64,000 bases of DNA from positions 124,001 through 188,000 of the forward strand of contig JAEYNP010000016.1 of NCBI GenBank assembly GCA_023412495.1, read 5' to 3'. The notes beneath the pieces are model-generated. The model ran no database searches and was not told the DNA's origin. It saw nothing but the letters and a program-made list of their open reading frames with translations. This document shows, piece by piece, positions 51,917 to 60,879 of this stretch. Both the position numbers and the translations under genes were made by a program. Source of the stretch: Pseudomonadota bacterium (GTDB taxonomy: Bacteria > Desulfobacterota > Desulfobulbia > Desulfobulbales > Desulfocapsaceae). Every line of letters begins with the position of its first letter. Within the stretch, counting starts at the first letter, position 1.

Positions 51917-53260
51917 ATGAAAAGAGTTCTCGGTATGGGGCTGCTCTGCTGCTCCTTCATCCTGCTGGCGGCCGTTCAAGGTCTCGGGGCCGGGGGGCCG
52001 AAGCCGTCGCCGCCGCCCAAGGCGAAGACCATCAAGGAGCTGGCGGCCCGCTACGATTCAAGCAAGTGCATGGAGTGCCATGAGGAAGCCCACGAACAGT
52101 GGTCGAATTCACTGCATTCCCGCTCGATCCTCGGCACGCCGCGCACGGCGCCGACCATCATCACGGCCATCGACATGGGCCTGAAGAATTTCGAATTTTC
52201 CGGGGTCAAGGATGACAAGGACCTCAAGGTCGAGCATCTGATGCTCTGTGCCAAGTGCCATTTGCCTCAGTTGGACGAGGCCACCGACGATGTCGCCAGG
52301 GAGATAGTCACCACTATCCGTGCCTGGCAGAAGGCCCAGAAGGACGGGGACGAGGAGAAAACCGAGAAGCTGGAGGAGACCATCGCCAGCCTGAACATCG
52401 GCTGCATGGTCTGCCACAACAAGGTTGCCCTTATTCACAAATACGCCGACGGCTATCCCCAGCCCGATACCGTCTACGGCAGCAAAGACGGCGACCATGA
52501 GGCCGAGGGCCAGCCGAAGATGGCGGTCGCGCCGGCCATGAGCGAATCGATCCTCTGCGGCCAGTGCCACGGCCAGGGGCCGAATTTCGAGTTCGACCAT
52601 CCCTCCCAGTGCGCCACCCTCTACGGCAGCTATCTCTTCTCCTACGTGGCTCACGGCGGCAGCGAATCCTGCCAGGAGTGCCACATGAAGAAGTCCGGCC
52701 TGGGTCATGACATCCAGGCCTACAAGGACGAGAAGATGATCGCCATGGCGATGGACGTCAAGGTTGAAGGCCGGTCGCTCTTCTGGCGCAAAAACAAGGA
52801 GGCAGGCGTAGTTCCCATCGGCGTGATCGACGTCGAGATGATCAACAAGGCCGGCCACGTCATTCCCGACGGCTGACCCACCCCGAATCGGCTGGTCCTG
52901 GAAGTGACCGCGACGACCAAGGATGGGGAGCAAGTATACAAGCAACAGAAAATTTACATGCCTTTCCCCGGCAGGATGGGCAAGGGCAAGGAAATGGGTC
53001 GCGGCCCGTATGAGAAGAGTGGGCTGCTGCGGGAGACGAGTCTCTCTCCCGGCGCCCGCGTTCATGAAACCTTCGAGATGTCCTATCCGGTAATTGATGT
53101 CAAAAAAGGAGAGAAGACCCAGCGCGAGCTGGCCAAGGACGAATTGAAGGTGGCCGTGAAACTTTGGTACCTGCCCTTCGGCGAGTTCGACGGCCATGAG
53201 GTGGCCTGGTTCGAGGAGGAGAAGAACCTCGACCTGAAAACCGAATGGGTCTGGCATTGA
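51917..53260 (+). CDS. Pentaheme c-type cytochrome, selenoprotein (in-frame TGA 52874-52876)
   Basis: 447 residues if TGA is read as Sec at 320. Signal peptide about 1-25. Five CxxCH sites are at 51, 111, 163, 214 and 252 (CMECH, CAKCH, CMVCH, CGQCH, CQECH). The C-terminal beta domain contains NKAGHVIPDG-U-PTPNRLVLEV and continues in the same frame for 127 codons to a TGA at 53258. The GHxxP...R..L.V segment crosses the TGA, as in other multiheme cytochromes with this domain. A GGTC/GACC hairpin follows at 52894-52909. Probably periplasmic or surface electron transfer; start has AAGGAGG. Confidence 0.85.
52894..52909 (+). promoter_or_regulatory. Candidate SECIS hairpin, cytochrome
   Basis: GGTC (52894-52897), loop CTGGAAGT, GACC (52906-52909), starting 18 nt after the TGA. 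It is the weakest of the SECIS candidates here (4-bp stem). Confidence 0.4.
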
Positions 53261-53404: not shown

Positions 53405-54349
53405 TCAAGAAGCTGAGCTTTTCCGTGTCTCCACATAATGAGCCGCGGCCAGCGCCGCAGTGCAGCCGTCTGCGGCGGCCAGCACGATCTGGTTGGCATA
53501 CTTCTGCCTGAGGTCTCCCACCGCGAAGATGCCGGGGATGTCCGTTTCGCACTTCTCGTCGGTGATGACATAGCCGTTGGTGCTTCTTTTGACGCCGGCC
53601 GGAACGATCTGGTTGTTCGGGGCAAAGCCGACAAAGATGAAAACCCCTTCCACATCCAGCTTCCTGTTTTCCTGGGTCTTGACATTTTTAACGGACAGGC
53701 CCGTTACCCCGCTCGCATCGCTGTCGATAGAGGAAACAATCGTATCATAGAGGATTTCGATCTTCGGTTCGGCGAAGACCCGCTGCTGCAGGATTCGGCT
53801 GCCCCGGAAGGCGTCCCGCCGGTGGATAAGATAAACTTTGTTCGTTATCTTGGCGAGATAGAGGGCATCTTCCAGTGCGGTATCGCCGCCGCCGACCACT
53901 GCCACTTTCTTGCCCCGAAAAAAGAAGCCGTCGCAGGTGGCGCAGTAGGAGACCCCCTTGCCGAAATTTTCATGCTCTCCCGGCGCCTGCAGCTTCTTGG
54001 CCGAGCCGCCGGCGGCCAGAATTATCGCGTGGGCCTTCAGTTCCGAACCGTCGGCAAGACGAACCGCATGATAGTCGAGCCCCGGCTCGGTGGCCACCAC
54101 TTCCTTTTCCTGGATCTCGATATCATAGGCCTTGGCGTGTTGCAGGTACTTGTCGCACAGCTCGAAGCCGCCGATCTCGATGAAGCCGGGATAGTTTTCC
54201 ACCCCCTTGGTGATCGCCACCTGGCCGCCGAAGACGCCCTTTTCGATCAGTACGGTTTTGAGGGCGGCGCGCATGGCATAGATCCCGGCGGTAAGTCCCG
54301 CCGGGCCTCCGCCGACTATGATCACATCGTAAATTTCGTTATTGGTCAT
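53405..54349 (-). CDS. trxB: Thioredoxin reductase
   Basis: 314 aa flavoenzyme passing electrons from NAD(P)H to thioredoxin-like proteins. FAD site GGGPAGLTAGIYAMRA, redox-active CATCDG, nucleotide site VAVVGGGDTALEDAL and C-terminal IFAVGDLRQK are all present. It is the last gene of the selenoprotein operon, 89 nt after the U16 protein gene with a dispersed repeat in the gap. That makes it a likely electron source for the selenoproteins upstream (inference). Confidence 0.93.
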   Translation of the reverse strand: MTNNEIYDVIIVGGGPAGLTAGIYAMRAALKTVLIEKGVFGGQVAITKGVENYPGFIEIGGFELCDKYLQHAKAYDIEIQEKEVVATEPGLDYHAVRLADGSELKAHAIILAAGGSAKKLQAPGEHENFGKGVSYCATCDGFFFRGKKVAVVGGGDTALEDALYLAKITNKVYLIHRRDAFRGSRILQQRVFAEPKIEILYDTIVSSIDSDASGVTGLSVKNVKTQENRKLDVEGVFIFVGFAPNNQIVPAGVKRSTNGYVITDEKCETDIPGIFAVGDLRQKYANQIVLAAADGCTAALAAAHYVETRKSSAS

Positions 54350-54360
54350 GTAAGTCTCCA

Positions 54361-54418
54361 GGTACTTATACCCCTCACGGGGGTGCTGAAAAGAGTCCCC
54401 CTTGAGAGGGGGTTAGGC
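54361..54418 (-). repeat. Dispersed palindromic repeat, copy 7 (other half)
   Basis: GGTACTTATACCCCTCACGG, GGGTGCTGAAAAGAGTCCCC, CTTGAGAGGGGGTTAGGC. It matches the part of copy 5 not found in copies 1, 2 and 6, and sits between trxB and the U16 selenoprotein gene. Confidence 0.65.
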
Positions 54419-54438
54419 TTTTTTTTCTTTCAAAGCAG

Positions 54439-54750
54439 CTACTTATTCAGAAGACGGTCGAGCAGGCCTTTCTTCTCGGGGGAGGGCAGTCCTAGATGAC
54501 GGCAGATGCAGGCCTCCAGCGCATGGTCGTCGATATCGGTCCCTTCCGCCAGTATCTCATCCCCGACCATGACCGCCGGCGCCACCGGCAGATCGAGGGT
54601 GAAGTACTCGTCGGTCTCGTATTGGGCTTTGGGTTTTGAGGTGATTTCTATTTCGATTGCATATTTTTCGCCCAGCCTGGGCATGATCCTGGTGAAATGT
54701 TTTCAGGGCTTGCCGTTGGGTTCGTTCAAAAAAAATCTGACCTTGAGCAT
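54439..54750 (-). CDS. 103-aa selenoprotein (U16), thioredoxin-like candidate
   Basis: The frame from ATG 54750 (AAAGGAG upstream) reads MLKVRFFLNEPNGKP, then TGA at 54705-54703, then KHFTRIMPRLGEKYA and on to a stop at 54439. U16 follows the first beta strand (VRFFLNEPNGKP-U), where thioredoxin- and glutaredoxin-fold proteins carry their redox Cys. Later residues LDLPVAPAVMVGDEILAEG resemble the cis-Pro strand of that fold (VAPAV). A second Cys pair lies near the C-terminus (ACICRH). Only 10 nt separate it from the rhodanese-DsbD gene. No named family is recognised. Confidence 0.85.
54670..54682 (-). promoter_or_regulatory. Candidate SECIS hairpin, U16 protein
   Basis: GCCCAGGCTGGGC: a perfect 5-bp stem with loop GGC, beginning 21 nt after the TGA, comparable in place to the E. 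coli fdhF SECIS apical stem. Confidence 0.65.
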
Positions 54751-54760
54751 GATTTCTCCT

Positions 54761-56509
54761 TTAATAATCTTCCTTTCCGGCTTTCGCCATATGTTCCGCA
54801 AATTTATCCGGCGGGATGTAGTCGACGAGCCGGAGTTTGTTTCTCTCCCGGCCGTCCCGGTCCAGGAACACGATGGTCGGCACCCCTTTGACCGCGTACT
54901 GCGCCAGCAGCCGTTCATGGATCGGGTCGCCGCCCTTGGTGACATCGACCTTGATCATGATAAAATCATTTTCCGCGAGTTTGACAATAGCCGGATCGTG
55001 AAAAACCACATCTTCCAACTCCCGGCAGGGCGTGCACCAGGTCGCGTAGAAATCGATGATGACGGGTTTTTTCTGCAGCTTGGCCTCCTCGAGGGTCGCT
55101 TCGGCATACGGCTGCCAGCCGACCCCCGGCCCGCGCAGCACAAGCGGCGCGACCAGAAGAATGGCGATGACAAGGCCCAGGGTGCCGATGAGACCCTTGA
55201 CCAGAGGGAAAAGGCGGAAGCCACCCTGCGTGCTGTCGATCCAGCCCAAATGCAGCCCGGCCGCGAGGGCCACAACGGCGGTGAGTATGGTTCCCCCCGC
55301 CCCGGGCAACAGCGGCCTGAGAAAATGGGCGGCCATACCGATAAGGACCCAGCCCATAAGCTTTCGCACCCAGATCATCCAGCCGCCGGAGCGGGGCAGT
55401 TTTTTCAGTTGTCCGGAAAAGATGGCAAGCAGGAAGAGCGGCAGCCCGAGCCCCAGGCTCAGGGTGAAAAAGACCACGAATCCCAGCCAGGGGCTGCCCA
55501 TGCCGGCCACCCAGGTGAGCAGTCCCAGCACGAAGGGACCGATGCAGGGGGCGGCTACCACGCCCAGGGTGAGTCCCATGAAGAGGCTGCCGAAATAGCC
55601 GGTGTAGGATCTGGCCGCCGCCCGGGTAAGTCCGCTTGGCAGGCGCATCTCCCATAGACCGAAGAGGCTGGTGGCGAAAAAGACCAGAATGGCGGCGACT
55701 CCTAGCAGGACTGCAGGGTTCTGCAGCAAGGCGCCCATAAGTCCGCCGGTGAGCGAGGCGGCGACGCCCAGCAGGGAGTTGGTGGCGGCGAGGCCCAGCA
55801 TGTAGCACAGGCCGTGGGTGACGAGGCGCCCCCGGCCTTCCCCGTTCCTGGTAGCCTGGCCGCCGAAGTAGGAGACGGTGATGGGAATGAGGGGGTAGAC
55901 GCAGGGGGTGAGGTTGAGGGCGATGCCGCCGGCGAAGATGCCCAGGAGGGTCCAGATCATCGCCCAGCCGTGGAGCGGTCCCGGCACCTCGGGAGCCTCG
56001 CCTGCTGTATGAGAGGAGGGCACGCTCGCCACCGGCAATCCTCTGGCCTGCCATTCTGGGAAGCCGTACGGGTCTCGGAAGACATTTTTGTAACCAAGTT
56101 TGACGGCCACCCGGGCCGCCGAGTCGCTGCGGACTCAGGTGAGGCCCGCTCAGTAGAAGACCAGGGCGCGATCCTTGTCGGGTCCGAGGAATTTCTCGAG
56201 CGCCGCGGCCTTGCGCCATTCGGCCCAGGTGGTGGGCTCCATGGGGAAATTCTCCGCCCCCTGAAGATGCCCGGCCTGATATTCCCAGGACTGGCGCGTG
56301 TCGACGAGCAGCAGGCTGCCGATTTCCCGCCGGTACAGTTCCGCCAGCTCGTCGGTGGTGATGAGCCGGTAGCCTCCCGCCTTGCCCTCCGCCACCACAT
56401 TCTCCCAGGTGGCCTGTGTGGGGGTGACGACCCGGTTGGTGAGCCAGAGAGCGACGACGGTGATGACTATCGCCGCGAGAGCGGTCAAGGTTGTTCCTTT
56501 ATTCTGCAT
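54761..56509 (-). CDS. Membrane rhodanese-DsbD-thioredoxin fusion with two Sec residues (U120, U125)
   Basis: 582 residues if two TGAs (56152-56150 and 56137-56135) are read as Sec. An N-terminal membrane anchor (about 8-26) precedes a rhodanese domain (45-155; LLLVDTRQSWEYQAGHLQGA). Its active-site loop reads LVFY-U-AGLT-U-VRSDSAARVA, where relatives have CxxxxC. Next is a DsbD/CcdA core with about eight helices, TPCVYPLIP (C203) and APCIGPF (C322), then a thioredoxin domain with WCTPC (492-495). Electrons may flow from cytoplasmic thioredoxin through DsbD to the extracytoplasmic domains (inference). The start lies 21 nt after the U59 gene. Confidence 0.88.
56104..56148 (-). promoter_or_regulatory. 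Candidate overlapping SECIS hairpins for U120 and U125
   Basis: First: CGGGCC (56148-56143) with GGCCCG (56117-56112), enclosing GAGTC/GACTC with loop CGCAGC. Second: CGGCC (56118-56114) with GGCCG (56108-56104), loop CGGGT, 16 nt after the second TGA. They share bases, so only one can form at a time. Confidence 0.65.
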
Positions 56510-56530
56510 GCCTCTACCTCGTTCGTCCGC

Positions 56531-56980
56531 TTAGGAAATCTTGCCTTCCCTCTTGAGCTTCGACAGCAGAAAGGTCGCGCCCCGCAGGGAGAGGCCGATC
56601 CTCCTGGCAAGTTCTTCGGCCGTGAGCGGACTGCCGCCGGCAAGATCCACGATTTCGTCCTCCAACTCCTCAAACCAGTCCTCGAACAGCACAAGCAGAT
56701 CCGGATCGGTAATGGCCATCAGCTGCTTCGATTGTGCAACCTTGTCCACCAGGCTCTGGCACATCTGCGTCGGGTCGACACCTTCGCCCATGCATTCGGC
56801 CAGTCAGAGGTGAACCATGCTGGAGACTTTGTCCTCGCCGGTTTCGCCCAGAAGGTCCATGATGAATCGGGTTCGGCCTTCCTCGCCGAGTAGGGGGAGA
56901 AGCTTTTTCAGGGCGACGGCCGCCTGGCTTGCCGCCTCTTCCGGATCGAGACTGTCGATAGCTTTTTCTATGTCGTTCAT
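56531..56980 (-). CDS. 149-aa selenoprotein (U59) with C-terminal helix-turn-helix
   Basis: From ATG 56980 (GGGAGGG upstream) the frame runs MNDIEKAIDSLDPEEAASQA ... SSMVHL, then TGA at 56806-56804, then LAECMGEGVDP and on to a stop at 56531. Sec59 and C63 form a U-x3-C motif, with a further Cys in PTQMCQSL. Residues 118-146 read LTAEELARRIGLSLRGATFL, a helix-turn-helix-like pattern. It lies between the ArsR-type gene (26 nt) and the rhodanese-DsbD gene (21 nt). It could be a redox-sensing DNA-binding protein; no family is recognised. Splitting it into two proteins would leave the second part without a ribosome-binding site. Confidence 0.75.
56772..56789 (-). promoter_or_regulatory. Candidate SECIS hairpin, U59 protein
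   Basis: GGGCGA (56789-56784), loop AGGTG, TCG, a bulged A and CCC (to 56772), starting 15 nt after the TGA. A GGU-containing apical loop is the hallmark recognised by SelB in E. coli. Confidence 0.7.
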
Positions 56981-57006
56981 GGGCACATTCCCTCCCGATA
57001 TGGCTC

Positions 57007-57363
57007 TTAAAAGGTTGTTCGCGCCGCCAGCAGATCCCGGGCGATTGCGCTCAGGCTGCGGATCGCCGAAAGAATGGCCGGGTCGGCCAGCTCGTAATAG
57101 ATGAAGGGTCCGCTGCGTTCGATTTTGACCAGGAGGGACCTTTTCAGTTCCTTGAGGTGATGGGAAACGAGCGGCTGCGAAAGGCCGAGTTCCTCGACGA
57201 TGCTGCCCACCGCCTTTTTCCCCCGGCTGATGCTGAGGAGGATCTTGAGGCGATTCTCGTCGGAGAGGCACTTGGCGAGAAACGCCACCGACTGCAGCTC
57301 GCCGCCCTGCAGATCGATTTCCTCGCAGACAGGCGCGAAGATCTGATTTCCATCGTCATGCAT
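57007..57363 (-). CDS. ArsR/SmtB-family transcriptional repressor
   Basis: 118 aa from ATG 57363 (GGAGAAAC upstream). Winged-helix landmarks are LAKCLSDENRLKILLSISRG, VGSIVEELGLSQPLVSHHLK (recognition helix) and the wing RSGPFIYYELADP. Cysteines are few (C13 and one in LAKCL), so it could sense metalloids, sulfur species or redox state. It is the first gene of the selenoprotein operon, directly downstream of a 36-bp palindrome, so autoregulation is likely. Confidence 0.9.
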   Translation of the reverse strand: MHDDGNQIFAPVCEEIDLQGGELQSVAFLAKCLSDENRLKILLSISRGKKAVGSIVEELGLSQPLVSHHLKELKRSLLVKIERSGPFIYYELADPAILSAIRSLSAIARDLLAARTTF

Positions 57364-57384
57364 GGGGTTTCTCCAGGAGTCGTG

Positions 57385-57420
57385 ATTGATAAACAAATAA
57401 ACGTTTATTTATATATCAAT
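57385..57420 (-). promoter_or_regulatory. 36-bp near-perfect palindrome, ArsR-type operator
   Basis: Half-sites of 18 bp meet between 57402 and 57403 (core AATAAACGTTTATT, outer ATTGAT/ATCAAT) with only two mismatched pairs. It overlaps the -10 element of the promoter below and ends 21 nt before the start codon. Confidence 0.75.
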
Positions 57421-57444
57421 ATTAAAAAGCCGCACTCCTGTCAA
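57416..57444 (-). promoter_or_regulatory. Promoter of the selenoprotein operon
   Basis: Minus-strand TTGACA (57444-57439), a 17-nt spacer and TATTGA (57421-57416). Perfect -35 and a moderate -10, the latter covered by the palindrome. Confidence 0.6.
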
Positions 57445-57514: not shown

Positions 57515-58489
57515 TCAATCGAAAAACTCATGCAGGAACTTGTCCCGGTATTCCCGCGGAGAGAGCTTGGTTTGGCTTTTGAACAGCCGGCGGAAGGTGC
57601 TGCTGTCCTCGTAGCCGATCTGCCGGGTTATTTCCTCGATCGACTCAAGGGTCGATTCCAGTTTCTGTTTGGCGACTTCTATCCGGACCATCTGCAGATA
57701 ACTGATGGGCGAGCAGCCGGTGGCGTTCTGAAACCTCCTTTTGAAATGGCGGGGACTGAGCCGGACATGGTTCGCCACCTCGTCGATCCTGATGTTCCTG
57801 TCATAGTTCTCTTCGAAATAGCGCTGGGCCTTGAGCATCTCGGCATCGTGGTGGTCTTCCCGGCGATGCATGAAGTAGGGGGTTTGGCTGTCACGCCGAG
57901 GATCTATCAGCAAGGCCTTGGCGCAGATTGCCGCAAGCTCTTTCGATCCATATCTGCCGATGATCCGGAGTCCGAGGTTATACTGGGCGGTGGCGGCGCC
58001 GGCGCAGAGCAGCCCGTCTTCTTCTGTGATCAGCCGGTCGATATCGAGACGGACCTTCGGGAAACTCCGCCGGAATTTCCGCGCGAAGTGCCAGTTGGTG
58101 GTAGCCGTCCTGCCATTGAGCAGCCCTGTTTCCGCCAGGAGAAAGGCGCCGGTGCAGAGGGCGGCGATGGGCGTTTTTTTCTCGTGCCGGGCGACGAGCC
58201 AGTTTTGCAGGGGCTTGTTTACCGCTTTCGAGTCGGGCAGGGGGATGAAGGGCGGGATGATGACGAAAGCGGTATCGGTGGCCTCAGTCAAACTCCGGTG
58301 GGGAAGCAGTTGGATGCAGCCGCTGCTGAGCATGGGCCTGCCATCCGCCGAGACGATCTCGGTCGCAAAGAGCGGTTCGCTGCCGCCGGAAAGCGATGCC
58401 TGCCACATGTTGGCGATGGCAAACATGTCGAGAAGTCCCGCAATACCGGAAGCCAGGCAGTTTTCCGCGGCGATGAAGGTGATTTTCAT
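57515..58489 (-). CDS. GlxA-family AraC-type transcriptional regulator
   Basis: 324 aa. The N-terminal DJ-1/PfpI-like domain (1-190) has the nucleophile-elbow-like AALCTGAFLLAETGLLNGR. The C-terminal AraC domain carries two HTH motifs: IRIDEVANHVRLSPRHFKRR and SIEEITRQIGYEDSSTFRRL with KLSPREYR. CTGGAG precedes the ATG. It is divergent from the molybdopterin oxidoreductase (146 bp between starts), so it is the likely regulator of that gene. Confidence 0.92.
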   Translation of the reverse strand: MKITFIAAENCLASGIAGLLDMFAIANMWQASLSGGSEPLFATEIVSADGRPMLSSGCIQLLPHRSLTEATDTAFVIIPPFIPLPDSKAVNKPLQNWLVARHEKKTPIAALCTGAFLLAETGLLNGRTATTNWHFARKFRRSFPKVRLDIDRLITEEDGLLCAGAATAQYNLGLRIIGRYGSKELAAICAKALLIDPRRDSQTPYFMHRREDHHDAEMLKAQRYFEENYDRNIRIDEVANHVRLSPRHFKRRFQNATGCSPISYLQMVRIEVAKQKLESTLESIEEITRQIGYEDSSTFRRLFKSQTKLSPREYRDKFLHEFFD

Positions 58490-58635
58490 ACTCTACTCCA
58501 GGGATAATCAGGCAATGGCCGTTATCGCACGGTTTTTGGCATTTATGCCTCTTTTCCGTTGCCGGTGCAAGGAGTAAATATGAAGCTGATCCAGATGGCT
58601 GTATTTTCGAACCAAGATCCCAGGGAGGTAAAATT

Positions 58636-60879
58636 ATGCACGATTGGCGAAAGACCGGATGTGTGTTGTGTGCGCAGAACTGCGGCCTGGAGATCCTCGT
58701 GGAGGGCGGCAGGATGGTGAAGGTGCGGCCGGACCGTGACAACCCGAGGAGCATAGGCTACGCCTGCCGCAAGGGCATGAATATCCTTAACTATCAGTAC
58801 CCGGCGGGGCGCTTGACCACGCCGCTCAAGCGGGTGGGGGAGGGATTCGTGGCCATCTCCTGGGAGCAGGCGCTTTCGGAAATCGCAGCGAGACTCCGCA
58901 GCCTCGTCGATACTCACGGCCCGCGCTGTCTGGCTTATATGGGCGCGAGTTCCCAGGGCGGACACTTCGAAGCCGCCTTCGGCCTCACCCTCCTCCGTGC
59001 CATGGGCTCGCAGTATCTTTACTCTTCCACCGGGCAGGAATTCAGCGGCGCCTGGTGGGTGGCCGGCCGGATGCTCGGCCGACAGTACAACGTCACCATC
59101 CCCGACGAGCAGGAAACGGAGATGCTGGTCGGCTGGGGCTGGAACGGCATGGAAAGCCATCAGATGCCCCGGGCCCCGAAGGTCTTGACCGAGATCGCCA
59201 GTGATCCGCGGAGGCTGTTGGTGATCATCGATCCGCGGGAAAGCGAGACTGCCCGAATCGCCGACCTCCATCTGCCGGTGCGGCCGGGGACCGATGCCCT
59301 GCTGATGAAGGCGATGATCGCCATCATCCTGGAGAAGAACTGGGAGAACAAAAAATATCTGGCCGAGCATGTCGAAGGCTTCGATCGGATCCGGCCGTGG
59401 TTCACCGGCATCGACACCGAGGCGGCTCTCGCCGTCTGCGATCTCGATCCGCGCCAGGTCGTCGAACTCTGCCGGCTGATGACCGAAAAACGCTGGTGTG
59501 TCCATCCCGATCTCGGCATCTACATGGGCCGCCACAGCGTCCTCAACTCCTACCTGATGCATATCCTCGGGGCGGTTTGCGGGATCTACGGGGTGCGGGG
59601 CGGCAACATCATCCCCGGCATGGTCATGCCGCTCGGCTTTCATGCCGACGAACGAAACCGCAAAGTTTGGCGGACGGTTACGGCCGACATGCCCCCGGCT
59701 GCGGCCGGGTCCTTTCCGCCCGCGGTGGTGCCGGAGGAGATCATGAGCGGCCATCCCGAGCGGCTGCGGGCGATCCTCGTCAACGGCTGCAATCCCCTGC
59801 GTTCCTACCCGGACACCTCCGCCTACGAGAAGGCCTTCGCCCAGGGGCTCGACCTCCTCGTCGCCTGCGACATCGTCATGAGCGAGACGGCGCGCCTGGC
59901 CCATTACGTTCTGCCCTGCCGCAACGGCTATGAATCCTGGGACGGCACCTTCTTTCCCTGGAGCTACCCCGGCGTCTATTTCCAGATGCGGCAACCTCTG
60001 GTCGAGCCCCCCGGCGACTGCCGGGAGGCGGCGGAGATCTTCACCAGCCTGGCGGAGAAACTCGGGCTGGTGCCGCCGATCCCCGAGGAGGTCCGGCAGG
60101 CGGCCCGAGGGCCCCGCCTGCTCTTCGGGACCAAGCTTATGGAATGGGCGGCGCGGGAGCCGGTAATCCGCGCCAGCATGCCCTTTATTCTGGCGAAAAC
60201 GCTGGGCGAGGAGTGGGGCAGCGCCAACAAGGCCGCTCTCTGGGGAATGCTGATGACCGCCCCGAAAACCTTCCGGGAGAATGCCGCCCGTGCCGGGTTC
60301 AAACCGGGGATGGATCAGGGGGATCGGCTGTTCGACGCGATCCTGGCCTCACCCCAGGGGCTGTGGGTCGGGGAAGCAGATATACAAAACCCCATGGCCG
60401 GGATCGCAACCGCCTCGGGAAAGATCGAGGTTTATGTCCCCGAGTTGGAGGAGATGACCCAATCGCTCGATGCCGCCTCGGAGGCGGCGGCCCTGCAGCT
60501 GCCCTCCAAATTTCCGCTCATCCTGAGCGCCGGCAGGCATATGCGCTGCAATGCCAACACTCTCATGCGCAATCCGGCCTGGAACGAGGGCAGGAGAGCC
60601 TGCACCGTGGCCATGCACCCGGACGACGTCCTGGAGTTCGGTTTGCGGGACGGGCAGCAGGTCCGGGTCACCACCGAGGCCGGGACCGAGGCGGGTGAAC
60701 TGGAGGCAGATAGCTCAGTCCGTCGGGGAACGGTTCTCATTCCGCACGGCTTCGGCCTGCTCTACGAGGGGAAGGTCTACGGCATGAATGTCAACCGGCT
60801 CACCTCGAACCGCAACCGGGACATGCTCGGTACGCCCCTGCACCGATTCGTGCCTTGTCGGGTTGAGGCGGAGCGCTAG
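58636..60879 (+). CDS. Molybdopterin-dependent oxidoreductase with [4Fe-4S] site
   Basis: 747 aa of the DMSO reductase superfamily; GGGAGG precedes the ATG. The cluster ligands CVLCAQNC plus a later C in IGYACRKGMN are at the N-terminus. The cofactor-binding body includes SSTGQEFSGAWW, VIIDPRESETARIADLHL, GCNPLRSYPDTSAYEKA and the C-terminal beta barrel (ADSSVRRGTVLIPHGF, MNVNRLTSNRNRDMLGTPLH). There is no Tat signal and no partner electron-transfer subunit adjacent, so it is probably cytoplasmic. The substrate is unknown; acetylene hydratase-like and oxidoreductase activities are both possible. Confidence 0.9.
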   Translation: MHDWRKTGCVLCAQNCGLEILVEGGRMVKVRPDRDNPRSIGYACRKGMNILNYQYPAGRLTTPLKRVGEGFVAISWEQALSEIAARLRSLVDTHGPRCLAYMGASSQGGHFEAAFGLTLLRAMGSQYLYSSTGQEFSGAWWVAGRMLGRQYNVTIPDEQETEMLVGWGWNGMESHQMPRAPKVLTEIASDPRRLLVIIDPRESETARIADLHLPVRPGTDALLMKAMIAIILEKNWENKKYLAEHVEGFDRIRPWFTGIDTEAALAVCDLDPRQVVELCRLMTEKRWCVHPDLGIYMGRHSVLNSYLMHILGAVCGIYGVRGGNIIPGMVMPLGFHADERNRKVWRTVTADMPPAAAGSFPPAVVPEEIMSGHPERLRAILVNGCNPLRSYPDTSAYEKAFAQGLDLLVACDIVMSETARLAHYVLPCRNGYESWDGTFFPWSYPGVYFQMRQPLVEPPGDCREAAEIFTSLAEKLGLVPPIPEEVRQAARGPRLLFGTKLMEWAAREPVIRASMPFILAKTLGEEWGSANKAALWGMLMTAPKTFRENAARAGFKPGMDQGDRLFDAILASPQGLWVGEADIQNPMAGIATASGKIEVYVPELEEMTQSLDAASEAAALQLPSKFPLILSAGRHMRCNANTLMRNPAWNEGRRACTVAMHPDDVLEFGLRDGQQVRVTTEAGTEAGELEADSSVRRGTVLIPHGFGLLYEGKVYGMNVNRLTSNRNRDMLGTPLHRFVPCRVEAER

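Follow-up and report, generated by a model that had tools for sequence, protein, structure and literature searches.

A 64,000-nucleotide stretch of a Desulfocapsaceae genome (Desulfobacterota; GenBank assembly GCA_023412495.1, contig JAEYNP010000016.1, positions 124,001–188,000 of the forward strand), referred to here as the window, carries a minus-strand unit of five genes at 53405–57363, namely tsoR, tsoA, tsoB, tsoC, and trxB. A palindromic operator ahead of tsoR, selenocysteine (Sec) codons kept in three of the genes, and further genes linked to the same operator were observed in the window or in related loci. With about even confidence, the tso genes can be read as a TsoR-autoregulated, Sec-based regulon for sulfane sulfur or a selenium analogue, of which the repression, the signal and its sensing by TsoA, the substrate and chemistry, the topology, and the direction of electron flow are the parts that we infer.

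Organization of the tso unit

TsoR (57007–57363) is an ArsR/SmtB-type repressor which matched NF045707 with 154 bits (cut-off 115) as well as PF01022. TsoA (56531–56980), a LULAxC selenoprotein with a winged-helix-like C-terminus, matched NF045695 with 218 bits (cut-off 170). TsoB (54761–56509) is a rhodanese-DsbD-thioredoxin fusion matching NF045694 with 980 bits (cut-off 805) and the domains PF00581, PF02683, and PF13899, while TsoC (54439–54750), a NEPxGxxU selenoprotein with a predicted thioredoxin-like fold, matched NF045708 with 148 bits (cut-off 45). The last gene, trxB (53405–54349), encodes a thioredoxin reductase (TIGR01292, 358 bits; cut-off 343). The four signature Tso proteins, each above its curated NCBIfam cut-off, therefore occur together in one unit. 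Tso ("three selenoprotein operon") was named in a 2026 review (PMC13188914) in one sentence and a table, citing Haft and Tolstoy (2025), and no function is stated where that review names it. Since NCBIfam gives Tso names to all four proteins and the review mentions the system, the cluster belongs to a published kind; judged by its sequence, the cluster singled out in a preliminary description of this DNA is a further copy of the Tso system and not a new kind. As far as checked, and judged without Haft and Tolstoy (2025), the operator, the operator-linked genes, and the cysteine-free TsoR with its TsoA partner are new here.

The relatives comprised 80 loci, the best 80 of 134 confirmed TsoA-profile matches, and all but two were titled Desulfobacterota ("delta"). 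One genome may yield two loci, e.g., L006 and L007. A second draw consisted of 247 genomes of the phylum and may overlap with the 80 relatives, as G001 does. Rows entered the conservation counts at scores of 100 for TsoR and TsoA, 350 for TsoB, 60 for TsoC, and 300 for TrxB.

The coordinates of the five genes and the gaps of 26, 21, 10, and 89 nt between them were reproduced exactly as first described. The view of these genes as one ArsR-headed unit is supported by the short gaps, by a single operator that precedes the tsoR ATG by 29 nt, and by the order tsoR-tsoA, which is conserved among the relatives and often joined by tsoB and tsoC. The clustering expected in other Desulfobacterota was thereby found.

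The operator upstream of tsoR

The putative TsoR operator, ATATATAAATAAACGTTTATTTGT, lies at 57393–57416 on the minus strand, with two mismatches to ACATATAAAYNNNNRTTTATATGT and a position weight matrix (PWM) score of 26.0; the site is itself among the 51 sites used to train the PWM. It was the sole match in the 64 kb at three or fewer mismatches, and none occurred in 100 shuffles. The palindrome ACATATAAAY-N4-RTTTATATGT was present upstream of tsoR in all 75 loci with enough DNA, including the window; L032 (too little upstream DNA) and L014, L024, L026, L064, and L068 (TsoR not found) were left out of this count. The matrix was trained on 51 upstream regions out of 74 (the window counted among them), those with a site no more than 260 nt from codon 27 of TsoR. 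In 23/23 regions outside the training, a whole-locus scan revealed a more distant upstream site scoring 15 bits or more, as it did in L074. The site of L005, from the cultured Desulfoprunum benzoelyticum DSM 28570, scored 31.4. The extra room between operator and tsoR is taken up by trxB in L045, L057, L066, and L069, by a NifS-like gene together with trxB in L049, and, as seen by eye, by seeming trxB remnants in L019, L022, and L027. A 95-amino-acid CopG-like protein (Pfam match below cut-off) is encoded between operator and tsoR in L039, L047, L065, and L071.

Across 81 stretches, the matrix gave 79 matches of at least 15 bits, compared to 0–6 for 40 column-permuted palindromic matrices, and it gave none in 3.58 Mb of sequence simulated from whole loci. 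Simulated upstream regions (n = 3700) reached 11.7 bits at 99.9% and a maximum of 17.5, so that the two weakest operator sites (17.1 and 18.3) are not secure alone. The exact core pattern occurred ten times in the 247 genomes and was found in 8/23 TsoA-bearing genomes versus 1/224 others (Fisher p = 1.4e-8); seven of the sites precede tsoR, and one falls in the tsoA-tsoB interval. The reversed core pattern, used as a control, was found in four of the 247 genomes, none with TsoA. The palindrome is probably a DNA switch controlling the tso unit, and it lends itself to binding assays, to reporter constructs, and to tracing the regulon across whole genomes.

Selenocysteine codons

In-frame TGA codons on the minus strand encode residue 59 of TsoA (56804–56806), residues 120 and 125 of TsoB (56150–56152 and 56135–56137), and residue 16 of TsoC (54703–54705). 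A further in-frame TGA (52874–52876, plus strand) falls at residue 320 of the convergent cytochrome gene discussed below. All five codons of the preliminary description could be located, and those of the tso genes were kept in the relatives. The TsoA codon was TGA in 79/80 rows (Arg in the odd row), both TsoB codons in 44/44 readable rows, and the TsoC codon in 67/68 rows (Cys in the odd row). Over the three proteins together, the same codon was TGA in 190/192 readable rows, with homology flanking it on both sides. Such conservation indicates that the codons are neither chance occurrences nor sequencing errors. The phylum draw gave a similar result; TsoA was found in 23 genomes at 26 places, 23 of which carried exactly one TGA, and each of 12 TsoB genes above the cut-off carried two. 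Among the three TsoA places listed without TGA, two were Sec-free, Met-rich relatives and one has its TGA before the matched part.

A reading of these TGAs as true stops, with the genes being fragments, is consistent with the way automatic gene calls break at them, as, out of 1478 TsoA homologues found, most of the 120 that were listed had a length of 85–88 amino acids. This reading is nevertheless scarcely credible against the codon conservation with homology on either side, and it is further opposed by Cys at the TsoC Sec site in 9/28 metagenomic rows and by selB above its cut-off in 30/30 tso genomes tested. Cys was found at the TsoA Sec site in 0/17 metagenomic rows; a W at a Sec site in these rows was taken to be TGA read by code 4. 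A bSECIS-model hairpin fitted at 5/5 TGA sites, including that of the cytochrome, but also at 134/195 control codons. Judged by conservation, the Sec codons of TsoA, TsoB, and TsoC are real, and the idea that the TGAs act as stops was not borne out.

TsoR and TsoA as a pair

In 75/80 relatives, TsoR was encoded ahead of TsoA at a distance of no more than 400 nt. Three of the remaining five TsoA loci (L014, L024, and L026) lie at contig ends, and no TsoR could be found in L064 and L068. The tsoR-tsoA gap was 12–29 nt in 70/76 cases, including the window. A TsoR-type gene lay within 360 nt of TsoA at 25 of the 26 places in the phylum draw and one gene away at the other. Conversely, 19/20 TsoR places above the cut-off adjoined TsoA, the exception being a TAA-interrupted gene whose genome gave no TsoA match.

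The recognition helix of TsoR is near-invariant (SQPLVSHHLKELKR). No conserved Cys was found in 76 TsoR rows, in which the highest Cys column reached 42% (position 44) and the next seen 17% (position 32), and at none of positions 94–118, the region of alpha 5, did His rank in the top three residues. TsoA, in comparison, kept Cys63 and Cys74 in 81/81 rows (window included), and its C-terminus has a weakly supported resemblance to a winged-helix domain. As TsoA adjoins a TsoR-type gene nearly always and keeps Sec59, Cys63, and Cys74, while TsoR has no conserved Cys, TsoA is likely the sensing half of the pair. The operator and the winged-helix-like end also make TsoA, previously described as the U59 protein, a candidate regulator rather than an enzyme.

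Where PMC12423496 treats regulators of this type, the characterized sulfane-sulfur ArsR sensors are said to share two conserved cysteines, and many ArsR-type regulators without both of them are placed near sulfur genes, with other modes of action supposed. TsoR and TsoA might form a split ArsR system, in which a repressor without a sensing residue is gated by a separate obligate-selenocysteine partner; we regard this tentatively, as somewhat less than an even chance. As TsoA is completed only when selenium is available, such a circuit would read reactive sulfur (or a metalloid) and the selenium supply together, and the switch would drive interchangeable effector modules (rhodanese-DsbD, DsrE, SQR, and ArsM-like). 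It would be unusual for a selenoprotein to form the sensory half of a transcription switch, and such a case would be one way to explain how ArsR-type regulators lacking the two cysteines function.

As part of the same tentative reading, a wider class of ArsR sensors made up of two genes is suggested by divergent pairs whose partners are Met-rich and Sec-free. Several neighboring arrangements were also noted. At L104:1456–2262 and L105:1163–1936, the protein encoded after a TsoR-like gene is TsoA-like, has a Met-rich N-terminus but no Sec, and is possibly a metal sensor. A divergent second set at L043:7927–9335 (minus strand) encodes a TsoR-like protein and, with the motifs WUKKC and HUIKEC respectively, TlpA-like and TsoA-like proteins. 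One stretch, L108:594–4001, combines TsoR-like, VTT-like, TsoA-like (one in-frame TGA), and ArsM-like genes, the names being given by eye.

Genes linked to the operator

TsoB was present in 44/80 relatives. DsrE-type and/or sulfide:quinone reductase (SQR) genes were found in 28/32 TsoB-less loci (exceptions L021, L026, L062, and L064) compared to 2/44 TsoB-bearing loci (L046 and L058), in which they lie behind a second operator. For the TsoB-less count, a minimum of 783 nt downstream was required; this limit was chosen once the data had been seen, and it removed L031, L037, L065, and L068. Neighbor families entered the counts from 35 bits upward; hence the DsrE genes of L056 lie upstream and the match of L061 lies 4.6 kb downstream. 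A TsoA tree of the 71 rows for which 1400 nt or more downstream was available required at least nine changes of the TsoB label and at least two of the SQR label on well-supported branches, while both labels were also clustered on the tree (0/500 shuffles as low for either). The exchange of TsoB with DsrE/SQR is recurrent on this tree. The SQR-like protein of L047 matched solved sulfide:quinone reductases at E 8e-90 and scored far below the NCBIfam type III cut-off. The occurrence of DsrE and SQR in the same slot as TsoB fits a sulfur chemistry.

The operator was also found away from the tso unit. L060 has a tso unit without TsoB, and elsewhere in its genome a double operator (27.5 and 19.8) lies between divergent DsbD-TlpA and Fe-S-type genes (L091). 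In the genome of L002, whose unit has no VTT gene, an operator (26.6) lies between divergent VTT and ArsR-type genes (L097). Off-operon operators adjoin CopG-like, DsrE, and SQR genes in L046 and L058 and a CopG-like gene in L006. At a contig end of genome G077 (L109:1535–1558), an operator (27.6) lies about 200 nt upstream of genes for a Met-rich exported protein and an ABC transporter. The alternation of TsoB with DsrE/SQR and the sites beside DsbD-TlpA point to one testable chemistry.

Among the other neighbors, VTT-domain genes occurred on the same strand within 5 kb of tso in 21/80 loci and none further out, the queries having been chosen near tso. SelD was encoded inside the tso unit in 2/80 loci, and these genes (L080:10736–11785 and L043:11321–12418) carry an in-frame TGA. 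ArsM-like methyltransferases, all below NCBIfam cut-offs, lay near tso in 6/80 loci, and those inspected had an in-frame TGA. Such genes with the TGA in a SWAGU context follow tsoA at L013:5311–6144, L028:10590–11414, and L033:10628–11467. The SelD and ArsM-like genes keep selenium and arsenic under consideration. At L066:1248–3199 (minus strand), two genes that fuse ArsR to a rhodanese neighbor a TsoC paralogue, as judged by eye and by weak TsoR and TsoB matches.

A near-full trxB lay inside the tso unit in 7/80 relatives, in five of which it stands 5' of tsoR, behind the operator. On these counts trxB is a loose member of the unit, and the other genomes would draw a thioredoxin reductase from elsewhere. 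The gene convergent with trxB (51917–53260, plus strand) encodes an ExtKL multiheme cytochrome (NF040886, 581 bits; cut-off 250) and lies outside the unit. ExtKL adjoined tso in 0/80 fetched stretches of relatives, and its membership in the system is not supported. On the other side of the unit (57518–60876), an AraC/DJ-1 regulator is divergent from a formate-dehydrogenase-like molybdopterin oxidoreductase, the latter without TGA.

Proposed mechanism and alternative explanations

TsoR bound to the single palindromic operator ahead of the unit would keep the unit off, with TsoA (Sec59, Cys63, Cys74, and the winged-helix-like end) acting as its sensing partner. Sulfane sulfur (polysulfide or persulfide) or a selenium analogue would oxidize or load the Sec of TsoA, upon which repression would be lifted. 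TsoB may be described as a DsbD whose acceptor domain has been swapped for a rhodanese. Its cysteines were well kept in relatives, including the DsbD membrane pair (C203 in 45/45 and C322 in 45/46) and the CxxC of the thioredoxin domain (C492 and C495 in 42/42), together with Sec120 and Sec125 of the rhodanese (44/44). Electrons might pass from NADPH to TrxB, to a thioredoxin (possibly TsoC), from there to the membrane cysteines of the DsbD part, to the thioredoxin domain, and finally to the Sec120/Sec125 rhodanese, which would sit outside the membrane, bind sulfane sulfur on Sec, and then release it reduced or relay it. The conserved residues leave the TrxB-DsbD-rhodanese chain put forward earlier as plausible chemistry. 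TsoC, the U16 protein of that description, has a predicted thioredoxin-like fold (beta-alpha-beta...beta-beta-alpha) with a single Sec, its only other frequent Cys being position 83 (45/69 rows), and a flow from TrxB through TsoC to DsbD is plausible.

The unit could instead handle selenium, by capturing or reducing Se0, selenite, or selenodithiols or by supplying selenide for Sec synthesis, and we consider this an unlikely alternative. Its own proteins require Sec, which ties it to the selenium supply; SelD is encoded within the unit of L043 and of L080, L049 has a NifS-like class V aminotransferase and trxB between operator and tsoR, and a DsrE of L060 matches YedF, although far below the cut-off (22 of 110 bits). 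Some VTT/DedA proteins are tied to selenite uptake, and the VTT genes on the same strand in about a quarter of the loci could be understood in this way. However, SelD was confined to those two loci, precedent marks SQR and DsrE as sulfur proteins, and a supply system that needs Sec itself would fail when most required. Detoxification of arsenic or a soft metal(loid), with TsoR/TsoA as the metalloid sensor and the rhodanese/DsbD part as thiol chemistry, appears less probable still. The ArsR family membership of TsoR, the ArsM-like genes, the divergent pairs with Met-rich TsoA-like proteins (one, in L108, by an ArsM-like gene), and the operator ahead of the Met-rich protein and ABC transporter in L109 speak for it. 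Yet the ArsM-like genes are outnumbered by DsrE/SQR genes, and no efflux pump or arsenate reductase could be recognized among gene clusters found in at least five loci, as judged from leading residues. Arsenic, one of the possible signals first proposed, is unsupported as a thiol-bound ArsR signal because TsoR has neither a conserved Cys nor a common alpha-5 His.

The conserved cysteines of the DsbD membrane and thioredoxin domains, the operator beside a DsbD-TlpA pair in L091, and the multiheme cytochrome adjoining the unit in the window would also agree with ordinary extracytoplasmic disulfide reduction or cytochrome maturation of the CcdA/DsbD type, the rhodanese then being an ornamented acceptor. 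Among the neighbors inspected, however, TsoB alternates with DsrE and SQR and not with Ccm-type genes, and the position of ExtKL beside tso is not conserved, which makes this explanation improbable.

Comparison with known systems

No difference from the Tso system was seen in the window copy, which carries Sec at LULAxC, at both TsoB sites, and at NEPxGxxU as expected; its trxB stands at the 3' end, as in 2/80 relatives. The SAO (Sec-assisted organometallic) operon, mentioned beside Tso in PMC13188914, is likewise a large multi-selenoprotein operon, a likeness drawn from the text of that review.

The order of domains in DsbD is an N-terminal alpha acceptor domain, the membrane domain, and a C-terminal gamma domain with CxxC. 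TsoB shares with the DsbD/CcdA relay (PF02683) the membrane cysteine pair and the C-terminal thioredoxin CxxC, whereas a rhodanese (PF00581) with Sec at two positions of its active loop stands where DsbD has its alpha domain. Unlike thioredoxin, TsoC has neither CxxC nor UxxC, and in the window Sec16 is followed by KHF.

Metal-binding sites in the ArsR/SmtB metalloregulators consist of Cys in ArsR and CadC and of His/Asp on alpha 5 in SmtB and CzrA. TsoR differs from them in having no conserved Cys or common alpha-5 His, although other metal sites could be present. SqrR, BigR, SoxR, sHdrR, YgaV, and HlyU are, like TsoR, ArsR-type repressors tied to sulfur-transfer and SQR genes. TsoR does not have the two conserved cysteines of the SqrR/BigR/SoxR/sHdrR-type sensors and instead adjoins, nearly always, a separate Sec protein.

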